Source: a virus. From it: a stretch of DNA of 45,727 bases. This document shows positions 1-45,727 of this stretch, in pieces; position 1 is the first letter of the stretch; every line of letters starts with the position of its first letter. The translations under genes and the position numbers were made by a program. The DNA lies in IMG/VR virus record IMGVR_UViG_3300009285_003348, positions 1-45,727 of that record, one strand, 5' to 3'. The notes beneath the pieces are model-generated. The model saw only the letters and a program-made list of their open reading frames with translations, ran no database searches and was not told the origin of the DNA.

Positions 1-131
1 CAATTCTAAGAAAAATATCTGAAATTTAGTGATTTTCAATCCGATGTACTGTATATAATCTATATAGATTTTTCACTTCTCAAAAGTAGTTAAAAACCGA
101 AAAATTTAAATAAATTCGTTTATTTGGAGTA

Positions 132-2201
132 GTGAAAATGGCACCAGACCTGGAAGAAAGGGCCGAAAGGCTGGGCTTGTGGATGCCAAGGCAAGATTTA
201 CAGGATGTATCACTATACTTGGGGCTTTTTGATAACCCTCTGCCAGCAGGCGAAAGAAGCCAGGACACAGACGGATTTATCTCAAGACTTCTCGGCAATA
301 GTTATGTCAGGACTGCGGTTGTTCCTCTTACAACAGGAAGCCTTGCATTTCTTATGTCCTGCGGAGATATGCGCAGCCCTGCATCATATCAGATGCAGAA
401 CTACGGCACAGAGCAGGTGAGCCAGAAAAAGATACAGACAGAGAAGGGTGCTATTATCTATGATGAGCAGCTTGGCAATGCAGTATTCATGGGCAAGAAT
501 GGGAGCTACAGCCTTTTTCAGAATGAAAAGCCGCAGCCTGATATAGGAAGGCTTTTGCAGGATGAAGACTCACGCGCATCAAAACCCACACTACTCGGCG
601 AGCAGCCTTCTATTCCTGGAGTGGATATTGAATCAGAGGAATTTTGGGCAGGGCTTGCCCCTCTTACAGGAGACTTCGACAACAATAAAATAGTTCAATT
701 CAAAGACTTTCTTGGCTTTGTGGCAAATTACGGAACATCCAACTCATTGTATGACATTAACAAGAACGGCATTGTTGATTTTGCAGATTTTCTTATGTTT
801 GTAAGGAATTACGGCGTAGCACAGACGCAGGACACGATAGAGTCTAAGGCATTCATTGACGGCACAGTCGCTTTAACTCATCCCTTATACGTGCAGCCGA
901 ACAGGACGTTTATGCGATTCAAGGGCAGTGGTGAAAATGACATAGCAGGCGAAATAGGGGATTTCGCTGCAAAGCTTGCCATCAGCGCAGGTCCAAGCGG
1001 GGAAGATGTTGTCACCTACAGGCTGGCAGCCAACAAATTGCGTGAAGCATTCCCAGACGGCAATATTGGAGTTACAGTAAAGGTAGTTGATCCAAGAGGG
1101 AATCACAGGTATCAAGGCAATGTGAATATGGAAGTGCCTGAGTTTTATAAGGAATTCTTACCCCACCTGGCTACTTTCTATTGGGTATATGAAAAGTTTC
1201 CATTTATCCCCTATGTTCACTTTGTCGGAGGCACGAGTACGGGCAAGACTACGGCCATGGAAGCCTTTGGTGAGGTTTGTTACCGGGGAATAGACACCAC
1301 GGGGTCATTAACGGTGTCTTCACTGTTCAGACTGGCTACCAATTGGGGTGGAACCATGATTATTGATGAGTTCGACAATCTGGGAGAACAGGCAGGGGAG
1401 ATAGTCACATTCCTTAAGGCTGGTACATCTAACCGCCTACTGTGGCGCACTGAGGGCGACAAGAAGCGTGAAGTTATGGGTTATATCGTTAAGTCTCCCA
1501 AGCTGTTTACCTCTGAAAAGCCCATTACTGACCCGGCCTTGCAATCAAGAACCATGGTGGTACAGATGGAGAAGTGTAAAAGAGAAATACCACTCTACAG
1601 GTTAGATGATTTTTATAAGGAAGCGGGTGAGATTAGGAATAAGCTACTGCTTTGGAGGCTAAGGAACCTGAATAAAATCGACTTAAAGAGTATTAGATAT
1701 GGGTTTCCCGAACTTAAGTTCTTAGACCGCAGAGTGCAGCAAATAGTTACCCCCACCTACTACCTGTCAGACGATGAGACCAAGGCCAGGATCATTGAGT
1801 TTTCAAAGAAACAGGAAGAAGAAACACTATTAGAAAGAAGAGAATCATTAAACGGCATGATCTTTACCAGGATGATGGACGTTAGGAATCAAGGTAACGA
1901 TGTTCAAATCAAAAATCTAACATCATTGGTTAATGAGGACTCATTTGCTAACGGATTTAAGGAACCTTTAACAGAGAAAAAAGTATCAAATATCGTCAAA
2001 AAAATCTTAGGATTTAACGTAGAGAAGAGAGGACACGATAAACTGTCCTGGATTGTCCCAGATTTGGCCCGCGAGGCTAATTGGTGCAAATATTTTGGCA
2101 TGGTATACTCTGAGGAAACATCCGCACAGTCCGCAAGACCCGCAACTTATGATATAATTGCGGAAGCAGAAAGGATTTTTGTAGACAATGACGAGGGGTA
2201 G
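132..2201 (+). CDS. Chimeric ORF: lipoprotein/EF-hand N-part fused to phage helicase-like ATPase
   Basis: As it stands this is one 689-residue frame, but it reads as two unrelated proteins. Residues 1 to about 332 carry a hydrophobic stretch ending in a lipobox-like LMSC (Cys77) and two Asp/Asn-rich calcium-loop repeats (about 179-201 and 208-229) of the dockerin/EF-hand type, as in exported bacterial proteins. From about residue 334 (VPEFYKEF) the sequence is a phage replication P-loop ATPase: Walker A GGTSTGKTT at about 366-374 and Walker B MIIDEFD at about 409-415, followed by an arginine-rich region. The phage half lacks its own N-terminus, which fits the gene starting at 44515. The join near base 1131 is either an assembly chimera or a rearrangement. 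The ATPase probably unwinds phage DNA. ATG at 132 has a GGAG 9 bases upstream; Met3 (138) is an alternative start. Confidence 0.75.
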   Translation: MKMAPDLEERAERLGLWMPRQDLQDVSLYLGLFDNPLPAGERSQDTDGFISRLLGNSYVRTAVVPLTTGSLAFLMSCGDMRSPASYQMQNYGTEQVSQKKIQTEKGAIIYDEQLGNAVFMGKNGSYSLFQNEKPQPDIGRLLQDEDSRASKPTLLGEQPSIPGVDIESEEFWAGLAPLTGDFDNNKIVQFKDFLGFVANYGTSNSLYDINKNGIVDFADFLMFVRNYGVAQTQDTIESKAFIDGTVALTHPLYVQPNRTFMRFKGSGENDIAGEIGDFAAKLAISAGPSGEDVVTYRLAANKLREAFPDGNIGVTVKVVDPRGNHRYQGNVNMEVPEFYKEFLPHLATFYWVYEKFPFIPYVHFVGGTSTGKTTAMEAFGEVCYRGIDTTGSLTVSSLFRLATNWGGTMIIDEFDNLGEQAGEIVTFLKAGTSNRLLWRTEGDKKREVMGYIVKSPKLFTSEKPITDPALQSRTMVVQMEKCKREIPLYRLDDFYKEAGEIRNKLLLWRLRNLNKIDLKSIRYGFPELKFLDRRVQQIVTPTYYLSDDETKARIIEFSKKQEEETLLERRESLNGMIFTRMMDVRNQGNDVQIKNLTSLVNEDSFANGFKEPLTEKKVSNIVKKILGFNVEKRGHDKLSWIVPDLAREANWCKYFGMVYSEETSAQSARPATYDIIAEAERIFVDNDEG
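1122..1140. other. Left junction between foreign DNA and phage genome (approximate)
   Basis: The protein character changes abruptly from an exported repeat protein to a phage ATPase around codons 331-335 of the frame starting at 132. The phage side begins at or just before VPEFYKEF. The exact base cannot be fixed by eye. The matching right junction is near 44890. This is inferred from protein content, not from a sequence signature. Confidence 0.55.
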
Positions 2202-2418
2202 ATTACAAAAGTTTATTAATAAATATTTTAAGGGAAATTGGGTGGAAGCCGCCAACGAAATGGTGGTGTTATTTTGTGAGAAATACCACATTCCCGGTTC
2301 TGCCGGATATAATTTCTATGAAGGTGTACAACAGGTGTGGGAGAAAGCGTTAGAAGAAGAAAAAGAAAGAGTAAAAGAACAGTCAAAGCTAGACAAAGAG
2401 TGGTTAGAAAATCACTAG
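2188..2418 (+). CDS. Small acidic/charged phage protein following the helicase
   Basis: This 76-residue protein is of no recognised family. ATG lies inside the last codons of the helicase frame (14-base overlap), so it is probably co-translated with it. The C-terminal third is a highly charged helix (repeated Lys/Glu). It is the last rightward gene before the convergent genes at 2415-2809, whose 3' end it overlaps by four bases. A replication accessory role is only a guess from position. Confidence 0.6.
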   Translation: MTRGRLQKFINKYFKGNWVEAANEMVVLFCEKYHIPGSAGYNFYEGVQQVWEKALEEEKERVKEQSKLDKEWLENH

Positions 2419-2633
2419 AAGCAGTTTACACACAGGCTATCTGTGTCTCCCTGAATTGGATCTCCACATTTGGTACAGTGTGCCCCTCGGTCACAGAGCA
2501 TTTTATAACTATAAACCTTGGCTTCTGCCCTGATGTCAGCCACGAGGTCAGCTATGGTTTGGGTATATTTGTCAATTCTATCCATGGCCTGTTGATAGTC
2601 CTTGATTGCCTCTTTGAGTTCGTCTTTGTTCAT
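2415..2633 (-). CDS. Small zinc-ribbon protein
   Basis: This 72-residue protein has an N-terminal charged helix (about 1-45) and a C-terminal CxxC...CxxC element (CTKCG and CVNC), which suggests one bound zinc. It starts by an ATGA overlap with the gene at 2630-2809, so the two form a translationally coupled pair. The family is not recognised; DNA or protein binding is likely for this architecture but unproven. Confidence 0.6.
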   Translation of the reverse strand: MNKDELKEAIKDYQQAMDRIDKYTQTIADLVADIRAEAKVYSYKMLCDRGAHCTKCGDPIQGDTDSLCVNCF

Positions 2634-2809
2634 GTTACGTGTGTTCTACATCTAAAGCAGTACATCCAAACATGGTCTTCATCTCCACAGTCTATAAAAA
2701 ACGGACCATCATGGTTACAGCCCCTCATCCTCCAACAAAAGGCCCGTACTTTCTCCAGACTTAACAGAATTCTTATGCCTACTTCGTAAATTTTATCTTT
2801 AATTATCAT
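2630..2809 (-). CDS. Small cysteine-rich protein, probably leaderless
   Basis: About 59 residues starting MIIKDKIYEVG. An upstream in-frame ATG at 2827 is rejected as the start because it overlaps the -10 box at 2819-2824. The ATG at 2809 lies 9 bases from that box, so the mRNA has almost no leader. The protein has several Cys and His residues (RGCNHDGP, FIDCGDED and a final CFRC), consistent with a zinc knuckle. It is the first gene of a two-gene leftward unit. Function unknown. Confidence 0.6.
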   Translation of the reverse strand: MIIKDKIYEVGIRILLSLEKVRAFCWRMRGCNHDGPFFIDCGDEDHVWMYCFRCRTHVT

Positions 2810-2818
2810 ACTTGGTCC

Positions 2819-2847
2819 ATTATACATCTAACTTAAAATTTTGTCAA
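2819..2847 (-). promoter_or_regulatory. Consensus sigma70-type promoter, leaderless output
   Basis: On the minus strand TTGACA (2842-2847) is followed by exactly 17 bases and TATAAT (2819-2824), a perfect match to both boxes. The spacer ends in GTTAGATG, shared in near-identical form with the promoters at 40502 and 43983. ATG follows 9 bases after TATAAT. Confidence 0.85.
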
Positions 2848-3099
2848 TAGCTTGGAAACTGAAAATTCGAAAAGCTCAGATAGGCTGATTTTGATTTCCG
2901 GTGTCTGTCCTTCTCCTGGTGATTTTTCCCCTTCGTGAAAACATGATCGTTTTCATGGCACGTGTACTCCCCACTGTGACATTTTAACCATTTACTAGTA
3001 TACCACCACAACCCGCCCCGGTTAGGGGTTTTTAAGCCTATTCTGTGACGTTGTATTATATTTATAATTCATTGATTAAACCTCCGACGAATTAAAATA

Positions 3100-3118
3100 G
3101 GGGGGAATAACCCCCCCC
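3100..3118. repeat. G6/C8 homopolymer hairpin
   Basis: Six G, the loop AATAA, then eight C: a perfect 6-base stem at least. It is the first of two adjacent homopolymer stems. Such tracts are absent from coding parts of the window. Confidence 0.75.
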
Positions 3119-3127
3119 ACAAACGAC

Positions 3128-3170
3128 GGGGGGGGATAATCTCGAAACTCGTCGAAATATATCCCCCCCC
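3128..3170. repeat. G8ATA/TATC8 hairpin, 11-base perfect stem
   Basis: GGGGGGGGATA (3128-3138) pairs perfectly with TATCCCCCCCC (3160-3170) around a 21-base loop containing TCGAAACTCGTCGA. With the preceding G6/C8 hairpin it forms an unusual tandem pair. Confidence 0.8.
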
Positions 3171-3181
3171 TGTAATCTACC

Positions 3182-3239
3182 ATCAGACTAATGATAAACT
3201 ACCGATAATTTACCATCGGTCTAACTAGTCTGATTTTTT
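3182..3239 (+). terminator. Nested hairpin followed by T6 (plus-strand terminator candidate)
   Basis: Outer stem ATCAGACT (3182-3189)/AGTCTGAT (3227-3234) and inner stem ACCGAT (3201-3206)/ATCGGT (3215-3220) are both perfect. Six T follow on the plus strand at 3234-3239. The right arm overlaps the last codons of the leftward gene at 3225. It could stop rightward read-through from the helicase unit before it runs antisense into the amidoligase operon; on the minus strand there is no U-tract. Confidence 0.5.
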
Positions 3240-3479
3240 CTCTGATGCTTCTACCGCTTCTGCCGTAAATGATTTAATCAATTCGGCTGTAAATTCAGCG
3301 TTGTAGGTAGCGTTGTCGTTACCGGCCCGAATTGCTTCGGCCAATACTTTGGGTTTAACACCCAACACACGGGCCAAAGTCAGAACGGACTTAGTAATCT
3401 CTTTGGCTTTCGCATAAGCGTTGTCCAAAGCGTTTACCGCTTCTGAGTTGTTTATAGTTATCACCTCCTTCAATTTCAT
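3225..3479 (-). CDS. Small protein of amidoligase operon (paralogue of 41755 protein)
   Basis: 84 residues if ATG at 3479 is used. The strong SD AGGAGGTG lies inside the frame at codons 4-6, not upstream of the ATG. Initiation could instead occur at the ATA codon at 3455, six bases after the SD, giving a protein starting NNSEAVNALD. The central motif ARVLGVKPKVL resembles AKVLSVNPKIL in the 41755-41964 protein, and both end in a similar charged helix. Last gene of the leftward unit. It may be a substrate, tag or regulator for the amidoligase, but nothing in the sequence proves this. Confidence 0.65.
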   Translation of the reverse strand: MKLKEVITINNSEAVNALDNAYAKAKEITKSVLTLARVLGVKPKVLAEAIRAGNDNATYNAEFTAELIKSFTAEAVEASEKKSD

Positions 3480-3530
3480 TTGTATAAATAACTCGTATAT
3501 CCCCTAGTAAACAACTAAGGGATATAGGGC

Positions 3531-3818
3531 TTATTTAATCAAGCGGTCTAAAATGGCTTGATGCTGAAATAGCAACTTGACTGCCGTGTTTCTGGCCAGT
3601 CTTCCGGCAAATTTGTGAATATCTTTGGTCGGCGTTTCTAAATCTGTTAAATACGCCTCCAAAATGGCTATATCCTCCTTGCTAGGGGCTTCTGATAGGT
3701 AAAGTTGTCGTCTGACACCCCCTAGGGTTTTCCGGTGGGTTTTATACCTACCGTGCAACTCACTGAATTGCTTGTCGGTCAAAAATCTTTTTAGTATCTC
3801 AATTTGTAAAGTTCCCAT
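3531..3818 (-). CDS. Small helical protein of amidoligase operon
   Basis: A 95-residue, lysine-rich, helix-forming protein of unrecognised family. It starts with ATG at 3818 after a GGGGGTGA Shine-Dalgarno. A 7-codon leader frame (3847-3824) overlaps that SD and stops five bases before the ATG. It lies directly downstream of the amidotransferase, so it is likely part of the same modification cassette. Its role as substrate or accessory factor is inference. Confidence 0.65.
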   Translation of the reverse strand: MGTLQIEILKRFLTDKQFSELHGRYKTHRKTLGGVRRQLYLSEAPSKEDIAILEAYLTDLETPTKDIHKFAGRLARNTAVKLLFQHQAILDRLIK

Positions 3819-3823
3819 GATTT

Positions 3824-3847
3824 TTAGTCACCCCCTTCAATCTTCAT
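3824..3847 (-). promoter_or_regulatory. Seven-codon leader ORF overlapping the Shine-Dalgarno
   Basis: ATG AAG ATT GAA GGG GGT GAC TAA reads through the SD of the gene at 3818 and stops five bases before its ATG. The same arrangement (TGAAGGRGGTGA inside a tiny frame) occurs before 3479, 18914, 25487 and 41690. It could couple translation, or be a by-product of a very long SD. Confidence 0.4.
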
Positions 3848-3853
3848 AGACAA

Positions 3854-5101
3854 TTAATAGTCTTCGGCCCCCCCACGACTTAAATAATAATTATTCTGTT
3901 CGTTTGGTGGGGGAGGTGGTGGGTATAATTGCTTCCGTCTATCCTGTAGTGCGTTGTCAAGCCGTCTAATCTCTTGCATCTCTAATGCTGTTAGTGGTTT
4001 TTTAAATTCCTTACCTTCGAGATGATCATACCTGGCCTGTAATTGCATTAAGCTATAATCTGATGGTTTTTTTATGGGTTTAGTCATATCAAATTCAATT
4101 GAGTTTTTATCAACCTTTGATCCTGGGATAATCCCGATAAGTCCCGCGTTTTTCCATGATCCCCCCTTGCTGATGCGGGCCATCTCTTTTAAGTTGAATT
4201 TAATTACATCTTCCTTGGCTTTGTGTTTACATTCACTTTTTAAAAACAAGCAATGATGTTTCATGCACCACGGATTATTTTCCGATGCTATATTTTCATT
4301 GTCTTTGTTAAAACTTTGAGCAACAAATGGGGGATTTTCTACAGTAAAGGTTGTGATGCCTTTAGGGGTTATTTTTAACCCCTTACCTAGTGGGATAGCT
4401 TGAATTTGTACTTTATTATGATTTTTTACTTCAAAGAATCCAAATAATAACTTTTTTGGTTTTAATATCTCCGTCAATATCGCTTCATCAGTTGCAAAAT
4501 ATATAAGGTTGTTAGTTTGGTCAATTGCAATATGTAGCTGATTTTCCCTCCTTATTAAATAAAGGTTGTCCGGCTCAAAGCTGAATAACATTGCTGTGGC
4601 TATACTCCCCCTTAGTTTTTTGATAGCCTCTTGTATAGCTTCTGTGGTCAGCATTCCCTGTTTAACGTAATACTCGACTAGTGCCGGAATCGCTTCGCTA
4701 TCCACTTCGGCATCTCGATCTATGGCATAAGTAGTAAATATATCCTTATCGTTTGAAACAATCCCGTTATGTACCGCCATTATTCCCGTTTTTGTGTGTA
4801 TAGGGTGGTTGTTTTTGTTTTCGCTTGCTACCCCCTGAGTTTTTAGTCTACAGTGTCCGATTATTGCCCTGGCTTTGATATTGTTATAACTCTTGATGGT
4901 ATTTTCATTTTTAAAAAAAGCATCAGCCCCGCATCCGTCTTTAATTACTCCGTAATTTCCAAATGAAGGAACCCAACCTACCCCCGTAGCATCTTCATTA
5001 CCTAATGATTGAAATAAGATTAAATCCCGTAATACATCCCTAGCTATGACACCATTGGCCTTAGTCCTCTTAATCCTATAAACTCCCGAAAGTCTACACA
5101 T
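3854..5101 (-). CDS. Class II glutamine amidotransferase (Ntn hydrolase)
   Basis: 415 residues. Cys2 directly after the initiator Met is the expected N-terminal nucleophile. IGHCRLKTQG (81-90) and HNGIVSN (111-117) match the glutamine-binding motifs of GATase-II domains (PurF/GlmS/AsnB type). Residues 1 to about 240 form that domain; the C-terminal part is unassigned and contains AGLIGIIPGS (319-328), whose DNA is identical over 31 bases to part of rtcB. The domain releases ammonia from glutamine. The gene overlaps the upstream amidoligase by 8 bases, so the pair probably acts together, as predicted for phiEco32-like phages. No synthetase domain is present in this chain. Confidence 0.85.
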   Translation of the reverse strand: MCRLSGVYRIKRTKANGVIARDVLRDLILFQSLGNEDATGVGWVPSFGNYGVIKDGCGADAFFKNENTIKSYNNIKARAIIGHCRLKTQGVASENKNNHPIHTKTGIMAVHNGIVSNDKDIFTTYAIDRDAEVDSEAIPALVEYYVKQGMLTTEAIQEAIKKLRGSIATAMLFSFEPDNLYLIRRENQLHIAIDQTNNLIYFATDEAILTEILKPKKLLFGFFEVKNHNKVQIQAIPLGKGLKITPKGITTFTVENPPFVAQSFNKDNENIASENNPWCMKHHCLFLKSECKHKAKEDVIKFNLKEMARISKGGSWKNAGLIGIIPGSKVDKNSIEFDMTKPIKKPSDYSLMQLQARYDHLEGKEFKKPLTALEMQEIRRLDNALQDRRKQLYPPPPPPNEQNNYYLSRGGAEDY

Positions 5102-6626
5102 TTTGATCCCCCATGGTGTTTACCTCCCTCATTGCTGATTCATAACTAAAGCTAGTAAATGATATATCCTCACCATTCGGTCTATCCCGCCCTTCCATAT
5201 TTATATCAGCATTTTTATTTTTTAACCTTGCTAATATGGGGATAATTTCAGCCCGCCTAATCGGTATGGTTGTCATTCGTTCCCCTGTTCGTTTTTCGGC
5301 CTTGTATGCTGTTCTGGTGGTGTATAACCATGTTAGTAAAACTATCAATTCAGCGAGATAATGCGTATTTTTTCGGATGTCTCTGGGTAGTCGGATTGCC
5401 TTACCTCTTCCTATAAATAGTTCGATGTTTCGATCCTCCCCTGTGAATTCCTTGATTAGTGTTTGTAATGTGGCGGATAATGCCCTCATTCTTTTTTGGG
5501 TCATTCCTGGTATATATCCCCACCCCATGATCTGAATTGGCCCCCCCGTCGGGCCTCCTTGCACACCAAAATCGTTTAAATACCCCATTTCGTTTAATTG
5601 ATCCCCCAGTACTCTTTTTAATACCAAATTACAGGTTAAACTAATTGAATTAGTTCTAATCATCCCCTCTTCTGGTGTAAATATTCTTACAAAATTAGAA
5701 TTAGTCCCCCTAACTTGTGATTCAATCACCCTAGTAATGTGCTTTAATAATACTTTGAATTCTCTTAACTTTTTAGTTTTTCGTAAAAATCTAAGAATGT
5801 GCCATCCTTGTTTCACTTCTGAATCAACTAATGGCCTTCCGGCCCTTGAGCTATTAATAATATAATTGATGTGCTGGCGGTATGGCTTGTAAAGTTCTAA
5901 CCTCTTAACGTCTGTAATCACCCGATCAAGTACAAAGCCTAACATGGCTTGTTGATCGTGGTTAAAGGCTTCAATAATAGCTTTATCTTCATAAGGTTGA
6001 AATTTAAATAAATTTTTATCATTGAAAATAGCCTCATACGCTAGTGCATAAGCCAGCGATAAGGTTCCGGCGGTTAGTTTCTGATTGCCTAGCCATGAAG
6101 GCGGTGTGCGATACTCCCATCCCCACGTTTGGCCCCTGGCATCTGATAACCTCCCGTAATTGCCTTGTATCTTGCGTCTGCGTCTATGGCCTGGATTTTC
6201 TAAAAATGATAAAGGAAGGGATAGCCCATGGTCGAGGTAGTATATTTGTTTATCTCGATTCTCCACGCTACCAAAATGAATATGCCCCCCCACCGACAAA
6301 CTGTTACAACTTGGCACAATGTTACATCTTCCCATGCTTGGATATTCCTTTACAAGTTGAACTAATAAACCTTGAATGGTGTTAGCAAGGGTTAGTGGGT
6401 CATTTGCGTAATGGGGTCGTAGTTCCAGGGTGTCGGGGTTGCCGTCTGTGCCTATAGGTGCATCAGTAAATGAACGCCGTGAGGTATCACGGTTCATGGC
6501 TTCATTAAAGAATGTAAACGCGGGGATAACGTCGTTTGTATTGGGTCTTAATACGGCCAGTTCAGGATCGGCCCCTATTGTTAGTAGGCCTTTAGGGTTT
6601 GGAATGCTTACAGGTTTAATTAACAT
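5094..6626 (-). CDS. phiEco32-type COOH-NH2 amidoligase
   Basis: 510 residues with motifs of the glutamine-synthetase-like amidoligase family seen in phiEco32-like phages: GADPEL (18-23), a GTDG...LELRP stretch (59-71), GGHIHFG (113-119), YGRLSD (157-162) and WEYRTPPSW (170-178). Enzymes of this fold use ATP to form an amide between a carboxylate and an amine. With the adjoining class II amidotransferase supplying ammonia, the pair could amidate or conjugate a peptide, protein or cell-wall component. ATG at 6626 lacks a clear Shine-Dalgarno. Family membership is reasonably secure; the substrate is unknown. Confidence 0.8.
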   Translation of the reverse strand: MLIKPVSIPNPKGLLTIGADPELAVLRPNTNDVIPAFTFFNEAMNRDTSRRSFTDAPIGTDGNPDTLELRPHYANDPLTLANTIQGLLVQLVKEYPSMGRCNIVPSCNSLSVGGHIHFGSVENRDKQIYYLDHGLSLPLSFLENPGHRRRRKIQGNYGRLSDARGQTWGWEYRTPPSWLGNQKLTAGTLSLAYALAYEAIFNDKNLFKFQPYEDKAIIEAFNHDQQAMLGFVLDRVITDVKRLELYKPYRQHINYIINSSRAGRPLVDSEVKQGWHILRFLRKTKKLREFKVLLKHITRVIESQVRGTNSNFVRIFTPEEGMIRTNSISLTCNLVLKRVLGDQLNEMGYLNDFGVQGGPTGGPIQIMGWGYIPGMTQKRMRALSATLQTLIKEFTGEDRNIELFIGRGKAIRLPRDIRKNTHYLAELIVLLTWLYTTRTAYKAEKRTGERMTTIPIRRAEIIPILARLKNKNADINMEGRDRPNGEDISFTSFSYESAMREVNTMGDQNV

Positions 6627-6641
6627 ATCTGTTGTTTATAT

Positions 6642-6929
6642 TTAATCGTTATTTTCTTCGGGCCGGATATCGTTAAGCGTGACCTCCGGCCCATTAATTA
6701 GTGAGGCTTCGTCAATTTCATCCGCATCGGGATTGATAAGAGGCAAAGCGCACAATTGGCCCTCGTGTAAATAATGCCAGTTGTCAGATAGTAAGGTGGC
6801 CCCTAATGGCAGTAAGTCATGGTCTGGTGTTATTTCCCCACTTGCAACCATAGACTTAAAGGAGGATAGTAGTAGGTCTAAACTTGATCTAATCCAAAAC
6901 GATTGATGGTAATAATCTAAAAGAGACAT
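6642..6929 (-). CDS. Small acidic protein, first gene of amidoligase operon
   Basis: 95 residues, with a helical N-terminal half and a very acidic C-terminal tail ending EENND. It lies 15 bases upstream of the amidoligase in the same direction. The family is not recognised. Position makes it a candidate substrate, adaptor or regulator for the amidoligase. ATG at 6929 has no clear Shine-Dalgarno; the upstream TTAAGT resembles the CAAGT that precedes the leaderless starts. Confidence 0.6.
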   Translation of the reverse strand: MSLLDYYHQSFWIRSSLDLLLSSFKSMVASGEITPDHDLLPLGATLLSDNWHYLHEGQLCALPLINPDADEIDEASLINGPEVTLNDIRPEENND

Positions 6930-6956
6930 ACTTAAATTGAATATTTAATACTGAGG

Positions 6957-6987
6957 ATAGTATCCCACCCCTTCCGGCTTTAGTCAA
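6957..6987 (-). promoter_or_regulatory. Possible leftward promoter of amidoligase operon
   Basis: Minus strand TTGACT (6982-6987), a 19-base spacer and TACTAT (6957-6962). Both boxes are good but the spacing is long, so this is much weaker evidence than for the other promoters. It lies 28 bases upstream of the first gene. Confidence 0.4.
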
Positions 6988-7342
6988 TAGGACGATATAG
7001 AACAGACTGTATCAGTTAGTAGTACAAAGTATATCAAGTATAAAAATACCCACGTTTGAAGCATATGCGTTAATGGTTATTATCCTTTAATATAAGGCAG
7101 GGATATAGTAAGGTAAGGCTAGGAAGGTATAAGGTGTGTAGTTACTTGAGGGTAAGTAAGTTACCAAGAAGTAAGTTAGTTACCTAAAAGTAAGTATATC
7201 AGACTATATCAGTACAATAGATCATAAAGGATGTACACCATCATGTTACCATTAAGCACTATAGGATATAAGAATTAGGAATGTCCAGTTGAAAAGGGTA
7301 ACCAGTTGGGCGAGTGTGGTTATAAATAATACTAGTCCTTTC

Positions 7343-7396
7343 TAAATATTTAGTATTTTTAGATGATGTTTAAAGATTTAACTATTAAATATTTAG
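7343..7396. repeat. Direct repeat pair TAAATATTTAG
   Basis: Exact copies at 7343-7353 and 7386-7396, 43 bases apart (about four helical turns). Each copy contains the palindrome AAATATTT, so it could also be a dimeric protein-binding site. Confidence 0.6.
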
Positions 7397-7431
7397 ATAT
7401 GACATATATTATATATAATATTTTAATACTT

Positions 7432-7485
7432 AGTTTATTAATATTAAATACTTTAATACATTATATTAATAAGTTTATTAATATT
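7432..7485. repeat. Direct repeat pair AGTTTATTAATATT
   Basis: Exact 14-base copies at 7432-7445 and 7472-7485, 40 bases apart, inside the most AT-rich part of the region. The spacing again approximates whole helical turns. Confidence 0.65.
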
Positions 7486-7531
7486 TGTTTTTTAAGGGAT
7501 ATACCCTTTTATAGGTTATATTAGTACTTGC

Positions 7532-7560
7532 TTGACATCTTAGACGTTTAATGATATTTT
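7532..7560 (+). promoter_or_regulatory. Rightward promoter of the sugar operon
   Basis: TTGACA (7532-7537), 17 bases, then TATTTT (7555-7560). The spacer contains TTAGACG, also found next to the -10 box of the promoters at 40502 and (as TTAGATG) 2819. The start codon ATG at 7568 lies 7 bases after the -10 box, so the transcript should be leaderless or nearly so. Confidence 0.6.
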
Positions 7561-7567
7561 ATTTTTG

Positions 7568-8500
7568 ATGGTAATAGCTCAAGCTCCGACAAGAATAAGT
7601 TTATTAGGGGGTGGTACGGATGTGGGTGAGTATCAAGAGAAGTATGGAGGATTGGTTTTAAGTTTGGCAATTAACCTTAGGCAGAGAATTTCTCTGGTCC
7701 CTACCAAGAGTAATACCATCTTTACCCGTTTGCCCATGAGCCTGGATGGAGATGAGTCTTTTTACAGAACCTTTCTGGATGAATTCAAAGTAAAGAACGT
7801 AGTCGTAGAAACAGACTTTGACGGAGAAATAACTGGAGGCATAGGTTCAAGTGCTTCCGCAGCAGTAGCCACAATAGGAGCCATCAACAAATACAAGGGA
7901 CTGGGAATGACCTTAGACCAGATAGCTGAGAGAGCATGGGACATTGAAGTAAACAAGCTAGGTCTTTTCGGAGGCAAGCAAGATCAATATGCAGCCGCCT
8001 ATGGTGGACTTAATGCCATTCAGTTTGAAAACAAAGTTATTGTAACCCCCTTAGGGCTAGGGTTAATCGAACCAATCTACCCCTATATACTTCTATTCCA
8101 CACCCCCAACAGAAAGAGTCCTAAAATCCAAGAGGGATTACAAAAGATAACAGGCCAACAGAAACAAGCCCTGGACTTCATTAAAGGTTCAGTTGTAAAT
8201 GGATTGGAATACCTAAGAGATCGGGATGTGACCAAGTTCGGGGATCTGCTTAAGCAGTGTTGGGAGGCAAAGAAAGTAAGTAACAACGTAACCACGGATA
8301 CAGTAGACGAACTGTATGAGAAGGCTATAAGCCTGGGAGCACTGGGGGGCAAGCTTATGGGAAGTGGCGGTGGAGGTTATATGTTCTTTCTGGTAGAACC
8401 AGACAGTCAAGACAAATTCAAGAAACAATTCTGTACTAAAGATGTTAAATGGGTAGACTTTGGACCAGACACCCAAGGTCTGGAAACAAGAATTGTATGA
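7568..8500 (+). CDS. hddA: GHMP kinase, D-glycero-alpha-D-manno-heptose-7-phosphate kinase type
   Basis: 310 residues, normal length for HddA. It begins APTRISLLGGGTD, the hallmark N-terminus of this GHMP subfamily, with the nucleotide loop GGIGSSASAAVA at about 90-101 and the C-terminal glycine-rich GKLMGSGGGG motif. The family phosphorylates heptose 7-phosphate at C1 in GDP-heptose synthesis. The ATG at 7568 was chosen over the TTG at 7565 because of the promoter position. The next frame starts by ATGA overlap. A related GHMP sugar kinase (for example fucokinase-like) cannot be excluded, but GmhA elsewhere in the window supports heptose. Confidence 0.85.
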   Translation: MVIAQAPTRISLLGGGTDVGEYQEKYGGLVLSLAINLRQRISLVPTKSNTIFTRLPMSLDGDESFYRTFLDEFKVKNVVVETDFDGEITGGIGSSASAAVATIGAINKYKGLGMTLDQIAERAWDIEVNKLGLFGGKQDQYAAAYGGLNAIQFENKVIVTPLGLGLIEPIYPYILLFHTPNRKSPKIQEGLQKITGQQKQALDFIKGSVVNGLEYLRDRDVTKFGDLLKQCWEAKKVSNNVTTDTVDELYEKAISLGALGGKLMGSGGGGYMFFLVEPDSQDKFKKQFCTKDVKWVDFGPDTQGLETRIV

Positions 8501-8589
8501 AACCAGATAAATGGGAAATAGCTTTAGGTGTGTTTTTTGGGCATATCCTTTATGATATTTTCATAACTCTAATCAAAAAGTTTTTATGA
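8497..8589 (+). CDS. 30-residue single-membrane-helix microprotein
   Basis: This tiny frame joins hddA and the nucleotidyltransferase gene with ATGA overlaps on both sides. It has a charged N-terminus (MKPDKWE), a hydrophobic helix of about 18 residues and a KKFL end, typical of a small membrane peptide. The double overlap argues it is translated. Function unknown; it could anchor the pathway at the membrane or merely couple translation. Confidence 0.55.
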   Translation: MKPDKWEIALGVFFGHILYDIFITLIKKFL

Positions 8590-9110
8590 AAGCAGTTATC
8601 CTGTCCGCGGGTCTTGGCACAAGGTTGGGGACCTTGACGGTAGACACCCCCAAGCCCATGATTGAAGTTGGGGGTAAGCCGGTAATTCAACACCTGGTGG
8701 AAAAGCTTTGGAAACACGGGGTCTATCAAATAATAGTAAACATGCACTATCTTCCCCTTAAAATGATGGAGGTGGAAGGAGCACTGTTGTTTTATGAGAA
8801 AGAATTACTGGGAGAAGAAGGAACTATCATGTCTCTGAGAGACTGGCTAGATGAAGAACCCTTTTTTGTTGTAAACGGTGACACCCTGTCAGAAGTAAAC
8901 CTGAGTGAAATGGTAACTCTGCTTCACACAAAAAGATGTCCAATCAGATACATTTACAACGGAACATTTGGAGGAATAGCCCTTTACCCGGAAAACTGGT
9001 TTAAGCACATGGACAGACCCCCACACCTATACCGACCTAATGTTGGATTTATAGACATGGGTACACCTGAGGGACTAGAGAAGGCTAGGCAGAAGTATGG
9101 AGAAATATGA
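8586..9110 (+). CDS. hddC: Sugar-1-phosphate nucleotidyltransferase (HddC-like)
   Basis: 174 residues starting MKAVILSAGLGTRL, the NTP-binding signature of the NTP_transferase family, followed by DTPKPMIEVGGKP and a VNGDTL metal-site motif. It should transfer a nucleotide to a sugar 1-phosphate. Its place after hddA suggests heptose 1-phosphate, giving GDP-heptose. It is shorter than typical HddC (about 230) and lacks part of the middle. It overlaps the next gene (ATGA). Substrate assignment is inference; rhamnose or mannose nucleotidylyltransferases share the same motifs. Confidence 0.75.
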   Translation: MKAVILSAGLGTRLGTLTVDTPKPMIEVGGKPVIQHLVEKLWKHGVYQIIVNMHYLPLKMMEVEGALLFYEKELLGEEGTIMSLRDWLDEEPFFVVNGDTLSEVNLSEMVTLLHTKRCPIRYIYNGTFGGIALYPENWFKHMDRPPHLYRPNVGFIDMGTPEGLEKARQKYGEI

Positions 9111-9946
9111 CAGAAGTATACATAAGCGGGAGTAGCGGGTTTATTGGCTCTTCATTTGCCACATACCTTGACCACATTGGAAACTCTCACTTCAAAATAA
9201 CCCCCGGAGACAGACAGGGAAAGTGTGTTACCAAGCCAAAGATAATTTTAGACTTTGCAAGTTATGGAAATTACTCAAATCAAAAAGATATAGGACACAT
9301 TTACGAAGCCAACCTCGTCAGACTATTACAATTATTAATGACAACCAACCACCTACCGTATAAAGCGTTTGTGGTTACAGGCAGTTCTTCTGAATACGGG
9401 AGATGTGATATTCCCATGCACGAAATGATTCTTCCAAGACCCGACACGTTCTACGGAGCATCTAAGTTGGCCGCGGTGTCTTTGGCTCAGGTTTGGGCTA
9501 AGGAGTTTAATAAACCTGTTGTAGCTGTTAGACCCTTTTCTGTTACAGGACCAGGAGAGCAACAGAACCATCTAATCCCCACATTAATCAAAAGCTGTAT
9601 GGAAGGACTGGAAGTAAATCTAGTTCCAGACCCGGTACATGATTTTATTGATATAAGGGACTTTATAAACGGAGTCTGGAGGGTGGTAAAAAGGATTAAA
9701 GACACCAAGGGCCAGGTAATCAATATCGGTTCAGGCAGACAGTATACAAATATGGAGGTTTTAGAGATAGTAGAAAGAGAAACAGGAAGAAAGGCTAACG
9801 TCAGTTTCGTAGACAAACTAAGAGACTACGATAAGCCACTCTGGGTAGCAGACAACTTTAGGCTTAAAAGCCTGGGATGGACACAGCAATTCTCGTTAGA
9901 AGATTCAGTTAGAGACATGGTTAGAGTATATGGCAAACAGAGATAG
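9107..9946 (+). CDS. NAD-dependent sugar epimerase/dehydratase
   Basis: 279-residue extended SDR protein. The Rossmann motif GSSGFIG lies near residue 8. The catalytic Tyr-Lys is in YGASK, preceded by the conserved TGSSSEYG serine region, and RPFSVTGPGEQ matches the family. It should epimerise, reduce or dehydrate a nucleotide sugar, probably the product of the two preceding genes. It starts within the last codons of the nucleotidyltransferase and overlaps the transketolase by 17 bases. The exact reaction cannot be read from the sequence. Confidence 0.85.
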   Translation: MTEVYISGSSGFIGSSFATYLDHIGNSHFKITPGDRQGKCVTKPKIILDFASYGNYSNQKDIGHIYEANLVRLLQLLMTTNHLPYKAFVVTGSSSEYGRCDIPMHEMILPRPDTFYGASKLAAVSLAQVWAKEFNKPVVAVRPFSVTGPGEQQNHLIPTLIKSCMEGLEVNLVPDPVHDFIDIRDFINGVWRVVKRIKDTKGQVINIGSGRQYTNMEVLEIVERETGRKANVSFVDKLRDYDKPLWVADNFRLKSLGWTQQFSLEDSVRDMVRVYGKQR

Positions 9947-10595
9947 GGTAATTGAAATCAGCAAGCTTCATAAACTGTCGCACATTGGCAGTTGTTTGAC
10001 CGCATTGCCTATAATTGAAGAGATATATGCAAGAAAACTACCCCAGGATAGATTTGTACTTTCTGCTGGGCATAGCCATCTGGCTCATCTTGTCGTTATG
10101 GAAAGTGAGGGTTTAATTAATGCAGAAGAAAATGTGGAAAAATACGGTATACACTGCGACAGACGGGCAGGGTGTGACGTTTCAACTGGCAGTCTTGGAA
10201 CGGGTTTGCCCATTGCTGTCGGAATGGCCCTTGCAGACAGAACAAAAGACATCTACTGCCTGGTCTCAGACGGAGAACTATCAGAGGGTTCATGTTGGGA
10301 AGCTCTTAGAGTAGCAGAAGAACAAAAATTAGGGAATTTGATATTGATAATGAACGCTAATGGATATGGGGCGTATGGAAAGGTTGACACCCAAAAATTG
10401 TTAAAACAATTAGACTCTTTCATCCCTGGAGGAATGGTAATAGAAGAGAATTCTAGTTCTTTCGAGAAAGCCATGGCCTTTAGTAAACGAAGAGATGGGC
10501 CTTCTTGGATGCTATATAAAACAAATTCGGATATTGGCACTTGGGCAGTAGGGTTGCAGTCGCATTACAAGGCGGCAGACGAGGAGTTAAAATGA
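9930..10595 (+). CDS. Transketolase-like N subunit (thiamine diphosphate PP domain)
   Basis: 221 residues. GCDVSTGSLGTGLPIAVGMA and SDGELSEGSCWEA...NAN correspond to the diphosphate and Mg-binding motifs of transketolase N halves (the usual GDG is SDG here). The following gene supplies the pyrimidine-binding half. Split transketolases of this kind occur in sugar clusters. A likely role is making sedoheptulose 7-phosphate, the GmhA substrate. It is shorter than usual N subunits (about 270-300). It begins inside the epimerase gene and ends in an ATGA overlap. Confidence 0.8.
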   Translation: MANRDRVIEISKLHKLSHIGSCLTALPIIEEIYARKLPQDRFVLSAGHSHLAHLVVMESEGLINAEENVEKYGIHCDRRAGCDVSTGSLGTGLPIAVGMALADRTKDIYCLVSDGELSEGSCWEALRVAEEQKLGNLILIMNANGYGAYGKVDTQKLLKQLDSFIPGGMVIEENSSSFEKAMAFSKRRDGPSWMLYKTNSDIGTWAVGLQSHYKAADEELK

Positions 10596-11104
10596 TCGAT
10601 TTTCCTAACTTTGGTAAACCACATGAATCTCAACGGGGTCATTTTGCAGCCCAATTGTACGAGGAAATGCTACGGAATAAAGATGTGTGGCTTTTAACTG
10701 GGGATCTGGGGTACGGGATGCTGGATAAACACAGACAAGATTTCCCTGAGAGATTTTTGAATGTAGGGGCAGCAGAGTTCTCGTTACTAGGAATTTCTGT
10801 GGGGCTGGCCCTGGAAGGAAAGATTCCATTTGTATACAGTATAACCCCTTTTGTCTTGTATAGGCCATTTGAAATGGTAAGGTATATTAACCATGAAAAC
10901 ATTCCAGTTAAGATTGTAGGAGGGGGAAGAGACAAGGATTATTTACACGATGGATTTTCACACTGGGCAGAGGAAGACAAACAAATTATGCCGGTGTTTA
11001 AAAACATCCATTCCCTGTGGCCAGAAACAAAAGAAGAAATACCCGATCTAGTAAAGAAAATGATTAACAACAACAAGCCAACTTATCTAAACGTAAAACG
11101 ATGA
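10592..11104 (+). CDS. Transketolase-like C subunit (pyrimidine-binding domain only)
   Basis: 170 residues from ATG at 10592, chosen over an upstream in-frame ATG at 10541 because it gives the ATGA overlap seen throughout this operon. NVGAAEFSLLGISVGLALEG contains the conserved glutamate that activates thiamine diphosphate, followed by PFVLYRPFEMVR typical of the Pyr domain. The usual third C-terminal domain of transketolase is absent, so with the previous gene this is a minimal two-domain enzyme. The substrate is not readable from the sequence. Confidence 0.8.
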   Translation: MIDFPNFGKPHESQRGHFAAQLYEEMLRNKDVWLLTGDLGYGMLDKHRQDFPERFLNVGAAEFSLLGISVGLALEGKIPFVYSITPFVLYRPFEMVRYINHENIPVKIVGGGRDKDYLHDGFSHWAEEDKQIMPVFKNIHSLWPETKEEIPDLVKKMINNNKPTYLNVKR

Positions 11105-11342: not shown

Positions 11343-11807
11343 ATGGCTAAAACGATTATTCCAGATACACAAATTAAAAAACCTACTTATTGGGAAGGTG
11401 GAGAACTCAAGCCGATGCGACTTGCAGGAAGACCGGCCAAAAGGAAGCTTGAAACTACTCCGCGCTCTCAACTGGTCATCTATAATCAGATCTCTAAAAG
11501 GTCACAAGAACTTGTCGTTAAGCTTTTCAAAATGTCGGAAAGTAAAAACGAAAGAATAAAGTTAGAAGCTATTAAAATACTTTTAGACAAAATATTACCT
11601 AACAAGAAAGCAGAGGAATTTGGAAAACAACACTCTCCCATCTCAGTCTTTATCAACAACCAAGGTTTCGTTCCCCCGGATCCAGATGTTGCCGCACCAA
11701 TGGGAGGTGTTGAACGACCCACACAGATTCAAGGTGCTCGTATGGCACCGAAGGGCGAGGAAGACTTCAACGGCGATAACGGAGATAGCAAAGCAAGCAC
11801 TAATTAA
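11343..11807 (+). CDS. Probable terminase small subunit
   Basis: 154 residues. The N-terminal two thirds are basic and helical (RPAKRKLETTPR, then a helical repeat region of about 50-95), as in small terminase or DNA-recognition subunits. The last 60 residues are low-complexity (Pro/Gly/Asp) and overlap the large subunit frame by 188 bases. Assignment rests on position directly before terL plus the basic helical character, not on a clear family motif. Confidence 0.55.
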   Translation: MAKTIIPDTQIKKPTYWEGGELKPMRLAGRPAKRKLETTPRSQLVIYNQISKRSQELVVKLFKMSESKNERIKLEAIKILLDKILPNKKAEEFGKQHSPISVFINNQGFVPPDPDVAAPMGGVERPTQIQGARMAPKGEEDFNGDNGDSKASTN

Positions 11808-12972
11808 AAAGGGAGTTTACTGGCATTTGTTTCCAACCTATGCAGAGGCTAAAGATGCGGTTTGGCGTGACCCTTCGATGTTGTTTCACATTATCCCACG
11901 GGAATTCATCCAAAGAACAAATGAATCAGAGCTTCTGATTTATTTTCGTAACGGTTCCATTTATCAGTTGAAGGGGGCAGACGACCCAGACGCTCTTCGT
12001 GGAGCCGGACCAAAGGGGTTGGTTTTGGATGAGTTCGCCAAGATCAAACCAGATGCATGGATGGTGTTAGAGCCTATTCTTAGGCAAAACATGGGGTGGG
12101 CTTGGTTTATAGGTACCCCCAAAGGAAGAAACCACCTGTATGACTTCTTTAAGAGAGGTCAGGAAGATAGTCCGACCTATAATCCTGAATGGAAAAGCTG
12201 GATCATGCGGGCATCAACCTCAGGGATAATTGATCCAAAACAGTTGGAAGAGTCTCGGAAAACTATGACGGTAGGAGACTATAACCAGGAATGGGAATGT
12301 GAATTCTTAGAGGGAGAAGGACAGGTATTTAGGGGAGTAAGACAGGTTTGTGTCTCAGTGCCCCGTAAACCAGAAACCAATCACTTATACGTTATAGGGG
12401 TTGACTTAGCCAAGGTAACTGACTTTACGGTATTGTGTGTGTATGACAGGGCGACAAATCAGCAGGTTTACCAGGACAGATTCCAAACCTTGGAGTGGCC
12501 TTTCCAAAAAAAGAAGATATTTGAGACAGCCAAATACTACAACAATGCGTTGGTAATACTTGACGCTACGGGACTGGGAGACCCCATCGCAGACGATCTG
12601 GCTCGTACTGGGATAGCCGTAGAGCCATTCAAAATTTCTGAACAATCAAAGAAGGAACTTATAGAAAAACTATCCATCTGGATAGATCAACAAAAAATAT
12701 TCATTCTTCCTACAAAAGAGACTTTTGACGAGTTTGATAACTTTTCTTACGACATTGGCATTACTGGTAAAATAAGATATGGGGCAAAACCCCCACACCA
12801 TGATGATATAGTCATGGCACACGCTTTAGCTGTCTGGGGGTTAAATCCGATTGTTCCAGCAGTCAAAGAAGTAAAGACGGCTAAAATACACACAGAATAT
12901 GAACGACAAAAAAGAAACTATGAAAGACAAGACGGCTGGGACTTCCCAGTTGAAGACTACATTGAATTTTAG
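11620..12972 (+). CDS. terL: Terminase large subunit (packaging ATPase/nuclease)
   Basis: 450 residues from TTG at 11620 (ATG at 11686 is an alternative). ATPase: adenine/P-loop region WHRRARKTS (42-50), Walker B with catalytic Glu in LVLDEFA (134-140), and coupling motif IGTPKGR (164-170). RNase H-like nuclease: Asp262 in VIGVDLAK, Asp315 in VILDATG, and Asp395/396 in HHDDIVMA. This powers DNA packaging and cuts concatemers. The P-loop reads RRARKT where most relatives have RRAGKT, a notable substitution. The gene overlaps its small subunit and probably the next gene. Confidence 0.95.
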   Translation: MENNTLPSQSLSTTKVSFPRIQMLPHQWEVLNDPHRFKVLVWHRRARKTSTAITEIAKQALIKKGVYWHLFPTYAEAKDAVWRDPSMLFHIIPREFIQRTNESELLIYFRNGSIYQLKGADDPDALRGAGPKGLVLDEFAKIKPDAWMVLEPILRQNMGWAWFIGTPKGRNHLYDFFKRGQEDSPTYNPEWKSWIMRASTSGIIDPKQLEESRKTMTVGDYNQEWECEFLEGEGQVFRGVRQVCVSVPRKPETNHLYVIGVDLAKVTDFTVLCVYDRATNQQVYQDRFQTLEWPFQKKKIFETAKYYNNALVILDATGLGDPIADDLARTGIAVEPFKISEQSKKELIEKLSIWIDQQKIFILPTKETFDEFDNFSYDIGITGKIRYGAKPPHHDDIVMAHALAVWGLNPIVPAVKEVKTAKIHTEYERQKRNYERQDGWDFPVEDYIEF

Positions 12973-23562: not shown

Positions 23563-24290
23563 AAAAAGTCATTGCATTTACTATAGCTGACGTAAATAAC
23601 GAAAAATATCTCAAGATGTTCGTTAATTCGTTGCGCAAATTCCACTCAGAGGAAGAGTTGCCACTTACTATTGTGAATCAGCCTTGGTTAGACAAAATCA
23701 AAGACCCAATGAAATTCTACAGGATGACCCCGATGATTGCTAAAGACTTAATCAATGAATATGAAACCGTAATTAAGTTTGACTGTGACCAGATAGTAAC
23801 CGGGAAACTGAACCATTTGTGGGAGAGTGATTGTGATTTGGGATGCGTTCTTAACGGAAACCCCAAAGAGCCTCCTTATGCCGTTTGGGACATTCACCCC
23901 CTTGCCTATATGAATTGTGGGTTGGTGGTAATGAAAAGTAAAGAAATGATTGATCACTGGTGGAAACTTTGCTTAACACCGCACTTTAATTCATACCAGT
24001 TCAAAGAACAGGATTTGCTTAATATAATATTTCACTATGGTAACTACAAAACCATTTGTTTTGACTGGTCTAATGAATGGCATGGGCTAGTAAGTAAGGG
24101 TTTTTGGAATTTCTGTGAATTAAAAAATGGTGAATTAGTTTTACCTAAAGGAGATAGGCCCTGGCCCCAGGACGCAGACAAGACCATTAAGGTGTTACAC
24201 TGGGCCGGGGGGAACGATCCTGATAAAATGAATTACAAAATTAGATTCAAAGAGGAGGTCGTAAAATGGCTAGATCAGTTAGTGAAGTAA
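23559..24290 (+). CDS. GT-A glycosyltransferase, GT8-like
   Basis: 243 residues. N-terminal nucleotide-sugar fold with the metal motif DCDQ (DxD) in VIKFDCDQIVTG, YMNCGLVVMKS as in GT8 enzymes, and a C-terminal HWAGGNDPDK analogous to the family's HxxGxxKPW motif. It should transfer a sugar from a nucleotide donor to a glycan or protein. No membrane segment. Clustered with two methyltransferases and a GT4 enzyme. Confidence 0.75.
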   Translation: MKKVIAFTIADVNNEKYLKMFVNSLRKFHSEEELPLTIVNQPWLDKIKDPMKFYRMTPMIAKDLINEYETVIKFDCDQIVTGKLNHLWESDCDLGCVLNGNPKEPPYAVWDIHPLAYMNCGLVVMKSKEMIDHWWKLCLTPHFNSYQFKEQDLLNIIFHYGNYKTICFDWSNEWHGLVSKGFWNFCELKNGELVLPKGDRPWPQDADKTIKVLHWAGGNDPDKMNYKIRFKEEVVKWLDQLVK

Positions 24291-25459
24291 AAGATAGAAG
24301 ACTGAAGATACTCTGGTCGAGTAATGCCTCGTTCGTGCCCAGTGGCTACGGGGTATTTACTAGAGACCTGCTTTACAGGCTGTTGAAGGATGGGTGGGAT
24401 GTAGCTGAAAGTGCTTTTGTGGGGCTGGAGGGAGCACCTATAACTCTGGAGGGATTGAAGATTTATCCTAAACTAAACGAACCATTTGGAACCGATTCAA
24501 TGTTTGCCAACAGTAAACACTTCCAGGCAGATGTTACTTTTGCCATGCAAGACATCTGGACACTAAATCCACAGATACTAAACCAAATTCCCCGATGGAT
24601 TCCTTATCTCCCAATAGACCAAGAGCCTATCTCTGCTGGAATATTACAAAATTTGAAGTTTGCTTACAGAATTATTACTTTTTCCAGATATGGCCAAAAG
24701 GCACTAGAAAGAGAAGGATTTACTTCTACATTGATACTTGAAGGAACAGATACAGATATATTCAAACCACAAGACAAGATCATGTGTAGGCAGAAATTTT
24801 CCATACCAGAGGGGGCCTTTGTGTTTGGGCAGATTGGAGCCAATAAAGAAAACCCATCAAGAAAGGGGTGGCAACAGTCCTTAGAAGCTTTTAGGATGTT
24901 CCACGACAAACACCCAGAGGCGTTGTACTTTTATCAGACCAATCAGTTCCAGCCGGGAAATTTCCCCATGGCTGAATATGCCAAGTATCTAGGGATACTT
25001 CCACAAGTTATGACCATGGAACCCTACATGGGGACCGTTCATGCAGGAAGCACTGTAATGTCGGAGCTTATTAATTCCTTTGATGTCCTACTTCATCCCT
25101 CAATGACTGAAGGGTTTGGTTTACTGATTATTGAGAGCCAAGCCTGTGGTATTCCTCCGATTGTAAACAACTGCCATTCACAACCTGAGTTGGTTATTCC
25201 TGGTGTCTCAGGAGAGATTTGTGAACCAGCATATAAACACTTTTCATCAGCGGGGGGATTCTGGTATGCCGCAGACACAAATTCTCTTTATGACAAAATG
25301 GAAACACTGTTTAGGGCTGACAGAAAAAAGATGGGTGAAGCAGGGAGAAAAAATGTATTAGAAAATTACGACATTAACAAGCTAGTAAAAGACCAGTGGA
25401 TTCCCCTGTTGTCTGATCTTCAAGAAGAACTACTCCCCCCTGCTATAATAAATAAGTAA
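24266..25459 (+). CDS. GT-B glycosyltransferase, GT4/GT1 superfamily
   Basis: 397 residues, strong SD AGGAGGT at the end of the previous gene. N-terminal SSNASFVPSGYGVFTRDLL is a donor/acceptor-loop pattern, and the C-terminal EGFGLLIIESQACGIPPI is the GT4 signature (ExFG...E nucleotide-sugar site). Normal length, no transmembrane segment. It probably uses the phage-made nucleotide sugar. The acceptor could be virion proteins or host surface glycans. Confidence 0.9.
   Translation: MARSVSEVKDRRLKILWSSNASFVPSGYGVFTRDLLYRLLKDGWDVAESAFVGLEGAPITLEGLKIYPKLNEPFGTDSMFANSKHFQADVTFAMQDIWTLNPQILNQIPRWIPYLPIDQEPISAGILQNLKFAYRIITFSRYGQKALEREGFTSTLILEGTDTDIFKPQDKIMCRQKFSIPEGAFVFGQIGANKENPSRKGWQQSLEAFRMFHDKHPEALYFYQTNQFQPGNFPMAEYAKYLGILPQVMTMEPYMGTVHAGSTVMSELINSFDVLLHPSMTEGFGLLIIESQACGIPPIVNNCHSQPELVIPGVSGEICEPAYKHFSSAGGFWYAADTNSLYDKMETLFRADRKKMGEAGRKNVLENYDINKLVKDQWIPLLSDLQEELLPPAIINK
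25441..25449 (+). promoter_or_regulatory. Extended -10 promoter candidate
   Basis: TGCTATAAT is a perfect extended -10 element at the end of the GT4 gene, 37 bases before the next start (TTG 25487). No -35 box was recognised. A TTG mini-frame of six codons (25468-25485) overlaps the AAGGAGGTGG Shine-Dalgarno downstream. Confidence 0.4.
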
Positions 25460-34961: not shown

Positions 34962-35434
34962 TGAAAGACAGAGAGCAAAAAATCCTAACTACGGTAGAAA
35001 TAGTTGGGGCTACTGCCCTGGCTCTCTTTCTGTCCACTTTAGCTTTTACCCAAAAACAACGCAGATGGATATTGGATAGAGATAATGAACAATGTCAGGC
35101 CCCGTTTAGACACCGACATGGGGGAAGGTTAGAAGTCCATCACATTCTTCCACAGGGATATAGTTCTCGAATGGGGATTGAAGACTACGATTATCCTGAA
35201 AACGGGATAACCTTGTGCCAGGTAGCTCACGATACTATCCATCCAGACGTACCCAAAGCCAGGGGTGACTATCATCAAGATGTTGGTTCTTTCGGAAAAC
35301 TCAGAGAACAGAGGTCAGAGAAATTAGACAAGAAACAAATCTATTGGAATGACGATCACGACAGACAATTACAGGTGGTTGCAATAAGAAGAACGCAAGG
35401 TTATAGGAAGTTGTTTAAGTTTCCAGACAAGTAA
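34961..35434 (+). CDS. HNH endonuclease with N-terminal hydrophobic helix
   Basis: 157 residues. LEVHHILPQG and NGITLCQVAHDTIHPD give the HNH core at about 58-93; FRHRHGG precedes it. Residues about 9-28 (TVEIVGATALALFLSTLAF) are hydrophobic enough to span or touch the membrane, unusual for an HNH protein. HNH nucleases near phage packaging genes help cut DNA; here it is in the lysis block. It ends 20 bases inside the convergent gmhA gene. Confidence 0.75.
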   Translation: MKDREQKILTTVEIVGATALALFLSTLAFTQKQRRWILDRDNEQCQAPFRHRHGGRLEVHHILPQGYSSRMGIEDYDYPENGITLCQVAHDTIHPDVPKARGDYHQDVGSFGKLREQRSEKLDKKQIYWNDDHDRQLQVVAIRRTQGYRKLFKFPDK

Positions 35435-35867: not shown

Positions 35868-35997
35868 AAACTTTCATTATTTCTAAAACGTATTGATCAA
35901 CTTCATCATCACGAATCATGTGTGGCCATGTCCCTCTGTCGTGGGCCACCTTACGTTTAATTATACGCTTAACTTGGTCATATCGAGTGTTTTTCAT
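35833..35997 (-). CDS. 54-residue basic protein upstream of gmhA
   Basis: Starts by ATGA overlap with the 35994 frame and ends 35 bases inside gmhA. Arg/Lys/His-rich (MKNTRYDQVKRIIKRKVAHD, GTWPHMIRDDEVDQYVLEIMK). Helical. The family is not recognised; the tight overlaps support translation. May act with GmhA, but this is only position. Confidence 0.55.
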   Translation of the reverse strand: MKNTRYDQVKRIIKRKVAHDRGTWPHMIRDDEVDQYVLEIMKVYDKKPNNKKIS

Positions 35998-45726: not shown

Positions 45727-45727
45727 G

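Follow-up and report, generated by a model that had tools for sequence, protein, structure and literature searches.

A tandem array of homopolymer G/C hairpins in the genome of an uncultivated tailed phage as a probable clustered intrinsic terminator

The closest described counterparts of the element considered here are clustered (tandem) intrinsic terminators. According to PMC8355165, hairpin clusters with spacings below 15 bases are common terminator units, and 98% of the correctly identified sites are located at most 80 bases from a stop codon. In PMC4824070, a terminator very near a stop codon was repressed and its efficiency climbed with distance, in the one system tested. Like the clusters described in PMC8355165, the present array contains several hairpins at spacings below 15 nt, directly past a stop codon and between putative transcription units. 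Unlike them, its stems are largely G8/C8 homopolymers, and it belongs to a phage and not to a chromosome. The last of its three hairpins (hairpin C) resembles a canonical Rho-independent terminator in having a GC-rich stem (10 pairs on the minus strand, including 6 G-C pairs), a 4-nt loop and a moderately T-rich tail, and differs from it in that the tail is broken by an A and two hairpins precede.

The window, that is, the whole stretch of DNA that was analyzed, comprises 45,727 bases and corresponds to a single virus record. Matches to terminase, portal and major head protein were found in it and indicate that its source is a tailed phage. The features in and around the gap under study are listed in Table 1.

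Table 1. Positions of the features discussed (window numbering; folding energies in kcal/mol)
Feature	Positions	Strand	Details
G6	3100-3105		exact, sequence read
C8	3111-3118		exact, sequence read
G8	3128-3135		exact, sequence read
C8	3163-3170		exact, sequence read
Perfect 11-nt arms	3128-3138 / 3160-3170		
Perfect 9-nt outer arms	3182-3190 / 3226-3234		
T6	3234-3239		
Hairpin A	3182-3234	minus	nested; opens at stop codon of 84-aa gene; -18.6 minus, -14.1 plus
Hairpin B	3128-3170	minus	G8AUA...UAUC8, 18 bp, one bulge, G.U pairs on minus; -30.0 minus, -26.3 plus
Hairpin C	3097-3120	minus	G8/C6 core, 10 bp via added G.U and U-A pairs; -17.4 minus, -13.6 plus
Gap under study	3224-2828		between leftward genes; ORF list
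Leftward gene block upstream of array	6929-3225	minus	
84-aa leftward gene	3225-3479	minus	without family match; ORF list and family search
17-codon ORF (with stop) just past hairpin C	3022-3085	minus	GGAGG, 8 nt, ATG; ORF 3072-3022; sequence only
Putative promoter TTGACA-17-TATAAT	2819-2847	minus	GTTAGA in spacer; ATG at 2809, 9 nt past -10 box
Putative next leftward transcription unit	2415-2827	minus	two small ORFs, 2630-2827 and 2415-2633; ORF list
All three perfect TTGACA-17-TATAAT sites	2819-2847, 40502-40530, 43983-44011	minus	
TerL	11620-12972		8.5 kb from array

The sequence-only reading had described G6/C8 (3100-3118), G8ATA/TATC8 (3128-3170) and a nested hairpin with T6 (3182-3239), and both the coordinates and the sequence of these elements were correct. 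It had also called this the only large gap between leftward genes, which does not hold: 35868-36325 and 36980-37318 are likewise located between leftward ORFs (ORFs of at least 60 aa). No G or C run of at least 8 nt occurs in the window outside the hairpin array, which contains three of them. Such runs are by themselves common in shuffled sequences (mean of 1.66; at least three runs in 68 of 300 shuffles), but their clustering is unusual, with 4 of the 20 runs of at least 6 nt starting within 71 nt, which was matched in 3 of 20,000 random placements. A G6..C6 pair with a spacing of 3-30 nt was present in 19 of 300 shuffles. The predicted fold of 3060-3245 was better than that of all 200 shuffles on either strand (z of -6.7 for the minus strand and -4.7 for the plus strand). 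In addition, the 60-nt stretch from 3121 has the top minus-strand stability among the 9134 windows compared (-31.9; mean -8.6, sd 4.2).

The three hairpins start 0-105 nt past the stop codon that ends the 84-aa gene, hairpin C being the one at 105 nt, and they are separated by gaps of about 11 nt (between 3182 and 3170) and about 7 nt (between 3128 and 3120). On the minus strand each hairpin gains 3.7 to 4.5 kcal/mol compared with the plus strand, because the G.U pairs of the minus strand turn into A-C mismatches on the plus strand; the bare core of hairpin C is the exception, being equal on both strands (-13.4). Two more hairpins at 3' ends within the leftward block, 3862-3916 (-17.2/-15.6) and 3494-3527 (-17.5/-13.3), share the minus-strand preference. 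Such an asymmetry would be expected under selection on the minus-strand RNA; as the hairpins were picked by eye, it is supportive evidence rather than a formal test. The tail of hairpin C on this strand reads TTTAATTCGT past the extended stem and TATTTTAATT past the core; it passes the scan's threshold of 5 T in 8 bases, and its U run is interrupted by an A and is not clean. No T tract follows hairpins A and B on the minus strand. On the plus strand, hairpin A is followed by T5 (3235-3239), a combination that could stop rightward (antisense) transcripts. Folding of the minus-strand RNA prefix by prefix showed that A, B and C appear in turn and that B is complete before the second G8 is made. 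A 35-aa ORF crosses the hairpins (3183-3076, minus strand); no Shine-Dalgarno sequence was seen in front of it and it was judged to be a chance ORF. The Rfam search of the window gave no matches above the gathering threshold (best sub-threshold score of 24.7 bits versus 50).

The true start of the 84-aa gene may be a few codons downstream of the listed one, because a perfect AAGGAGGTGAT was found just within the listed start. At the other side of the array, the promoter match lies about 250 bp beyond hairpin C. Perfect TTGACA-16..18-TATAAT sequences occur three times in the window, all of them leftward, and were found in 0 of 40 shuffles. In each of them GTTAGA occupies an identical spacer position and an ATG follows the -10 box at 9 nt, a distance that suggests a leaderless start, and they are probably a leftward promoter family of the phage with leaderless genes. 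A 29-mer shared by these promoters was derived from the three sites, which makes its shuffle count partly circular. The scan of viral contigs with this 29-mer gave seven loci; tblastn of the window ORFs against them (E 1e-5) gave no match, leaving their kinship to the window unsupported. In the relative L127, two promoter-like sites are located just before ORF starts (11039 before 11075 and 14833 before 14870).

A gene end, the hairpin cluster and then a promoter follow one another on one strand, and with the T-rich tail of the last hairpin this arrangement is that of a terminator standing between two transcription units. In the terminator scan of 2000-8000, hairpin C was the first entry; 14 rows were obtained versus 4.9 expected, 6 of the 14 being nested versions of C. 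These characteristics allow us to assume, with moderate confidence, that the array is a clustered intrinsic terminator between two leftward transcription units. A strong terminator had been among the options offered from the sequence, and it is the one now favored by the position past a stop codon, the strand-specific G.U pairing, the T-rich tail and the downstream promoter. The sequence, the predicted folds, the difference between the strands, the match to the promoter and the order of the genes are observed; that the upstream and downstream leftward genes are separate units, that termination occurs here, its efficiency and any stabilizing role are inferred. A phage transcript running leftward would then have its 3' end in the array, which would act as a strong three-hairpin intrinsic (Rho-independent) terminator, parting the leftward block from a second leftward unit begun by the promoter at 2847-2819. 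Hairpins A and B would fold behind the RNA polymerase and limit its backtracking, and might also protect the 3' end from exonucleases, while the G8/C6 hairpin C and the U-rich tail would release the polymerase. On the other strand, hairpin A and T5 may also halt antisense transcription from the rightward helicase gene.

Several observations speak against a terminator. The tail of hairpin C is no more than moderately T-rich, hairpins A and B lack a T tract on the minus strand, and hairpin C begins at 105 nt, outside the 80-base range given in PMC8355165. Comparable G-C-G arrays in other viral contigs also occur away from gene 3' ends, 7 of the 23 examined being located in an ORF of at least 100 aa and 5 between divergent ORFs. 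The 17-codon ORF with its GGAGG 8 nt before the ATG is odd if transcription always stops ahead of it; it is possibly translated should the terminator leak. Furthermore, no homologous gap was found in related records, thus there is no support from conservation or covariation. DNA searches of near and distant phage records gave no homologue of the gap or its neighbors, tblastn of the COOH-NH2 ligase against phage records gave none, and when viral contigs were scanned with the COOH-NH2 ligase, the glutamine amidotransferase (GATase) and the 84-aa protein, none was confirmed. Scans with TerL, capsid and helicase revealed seven relatives (L002-L005 and L127-L129). The gap was not found in the records of four of them in DNA searches run without a positive control, and blastn on loci from the other three gave no more than short weak matches to it. 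The G6..C6 hairpin, the GATase and the 84-aa protein were found in none of the seven relative records, two of which are short (5 and 11 kb), again with no positive control.

Two other readings at the RNA level were considered. The hairpins could be mRNA 3'-end stabilizers or processing sites, and not terminators, within one continuous leftward operon, which would agree with the hairpins of the same strand preference at the two other 3' ends of the block and with the small ORF bearing a Shine-Dalgarno sequence past the array; the consensus promoter at 2847, suggesting a separate downstream unit, and the T-rich tail of hairpin C make this fairly unlikely. Attenuators of amino acid operons (trp type) contain four alternately complementary segments in the order 1-2-3-4, and the array likewise has such segments: G8 (1), C8 (2), G8 (3) and C6 (4) on the minus-strand RNA could pair as 1:2 and 3:4 (terminator) or as 2:3 (antiterminator), giving a leaky terminator that regulates how far transcripts read through to the 17-codon ORF and past it. 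Across a 9-nt loop, the C8 at 3135-3128 and the G8 at 3118-3111 are indeed complementary, and a well-spaced Shine-Dalgarno sequence and ATG come next in line. However, unlike in the trp type, the 2:3 pairing is clearly less stable, with a fold forced to keep it costing 6.6 kcal/mol (-42.8 versus -49.4), and by the prefix folds B has already formed when the second G8 is made. No leader peptide with a Shine-Dalgarno sequence was seen upstream of or over segment 1, and neither an Rfam family nor comparative data support the attenuator, which we consider unlikely.

At the DNA level, the strong inverted repeats might mark a packaging (pac/cos) site, a replication origin or a fork barrier, and the cumulative GC skew does turn at about 5-6 kb, inside the leftward block. 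This turn falls where the genes change direction, 2-3 kb from the array, TerL is far away, the G.U asymmetry between the strands speaks for an RNA element, and by eye the AT-rich divergent gap 6930-7564 is more origin-like than the array. The pac or replication-block site proposed earlier found no support, and a DNA-level element is very unlikely. The proposal of a G-quadruplex-forming strand, for which the two G8 tracts of the minus strand could be cited, did not stand either: no four-tract G3+ motif with loops of 1-7 or 1-12 nt was found at the array on either strand, and the C8 partners compete for pairing, so that this structure is extremely unlikely. An artefact of assembly or homopolymer calling, with run lengths or part of the array spurious, was considered since the virus record is of metagenomic type and, among the matches to the array pattern listed in viral contigs, many consist of poly-G junk or are located at the ends of loci. 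The runs here are only 6-8 nt long and internal, their arms are matched, and unique AT-rich spacers between them prolong the pairing beyond the runs, which makes such an origin highly improbable.

The pattern G7-N-C7-N-G7 was found at no fewer than 119 loci in viral contigs; the counts are raw, without a chance control, and do not imply enrichment. The 119 listed loci and the window (120 sequences) were filtered by dropping 45 located no more than 150 nt from an end, 13 having runs of at least 11 nt, 27 with a GC content above 60% and 10 duplicates. Among the matches listed, 24 loci and the window remained, and 23 of these loci were examined, L088 being left out as near-identical to L082. According to mechanical ORF calls, 9 of these 23 arrays are located between tandem ORFs, 7 inside an ORF of at least 100 aa, 5 between divergent ORFs and 1 between convergent ORFs, and 1 has no left flank. 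The divergent arrays speak against a terminator role common to all such arrays. A broader possibility, considered quite unlikely, is that tandem hairpin arrays with homopolymer G/C stems recur under selection in the genomes of uncultivated phages, serving not just as terminators since some lie between divergent genes, with slippage-variable arm lengths that tune their function; the recurrence itself is no proof of a wider class and does not exclude one either. Also among the matches listed, the same G8-C7-G8 array is located within a larger AT-rich palindrome in five viral contigs (L011, L079, L115, L120 and L123).

The present array is probably a real and strong terminator of an ordinary kind, with homopolymer stems. 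It is likely to mark the border between two transcripts in this uncultivated phage, where a strong stop is succeeded by one of the three putative copies of the phage leftward promoter, and although the kind of element is ordinary, array and promoter together give a testable transcription map.

A number of other features were observed in the genome. In the relatives L127 and L129, the helicase part that is homologous to 1131-2201 comes immediately after a homologue of ORF 44515-44997. This order suggests that both ends of the window are neighbors, the outer stretches (1-1130 and about 44,900-45,727) being an insert if the genome is circular, or else chimeric ends of the contig; a dockerin-like repeat was noticed by eye in these stretches. 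Matches to GHMP kinase, nucleotidyltransferase, epimerase, SIS-domain and glycosyltransferase proteins are located at 7565-11104 (plus strand), 35415-35867 (minus strand) and 24266-25459 (plus strand). We take the SIS-domain match to be GmhA-like, and ORFs 9930-10595 and 10541-11104 resemble transketolase halves by eye. These genes are possibly a phage-borne heptose-nucleotide pathway. The glutamine amidotransferase gene adjoins a phiEco32-type COOH-NH2 ligase gene (3854-6626, minus strand), and an RtcB-type RNA ligase is encoded at 42330-43472 (minus strand).
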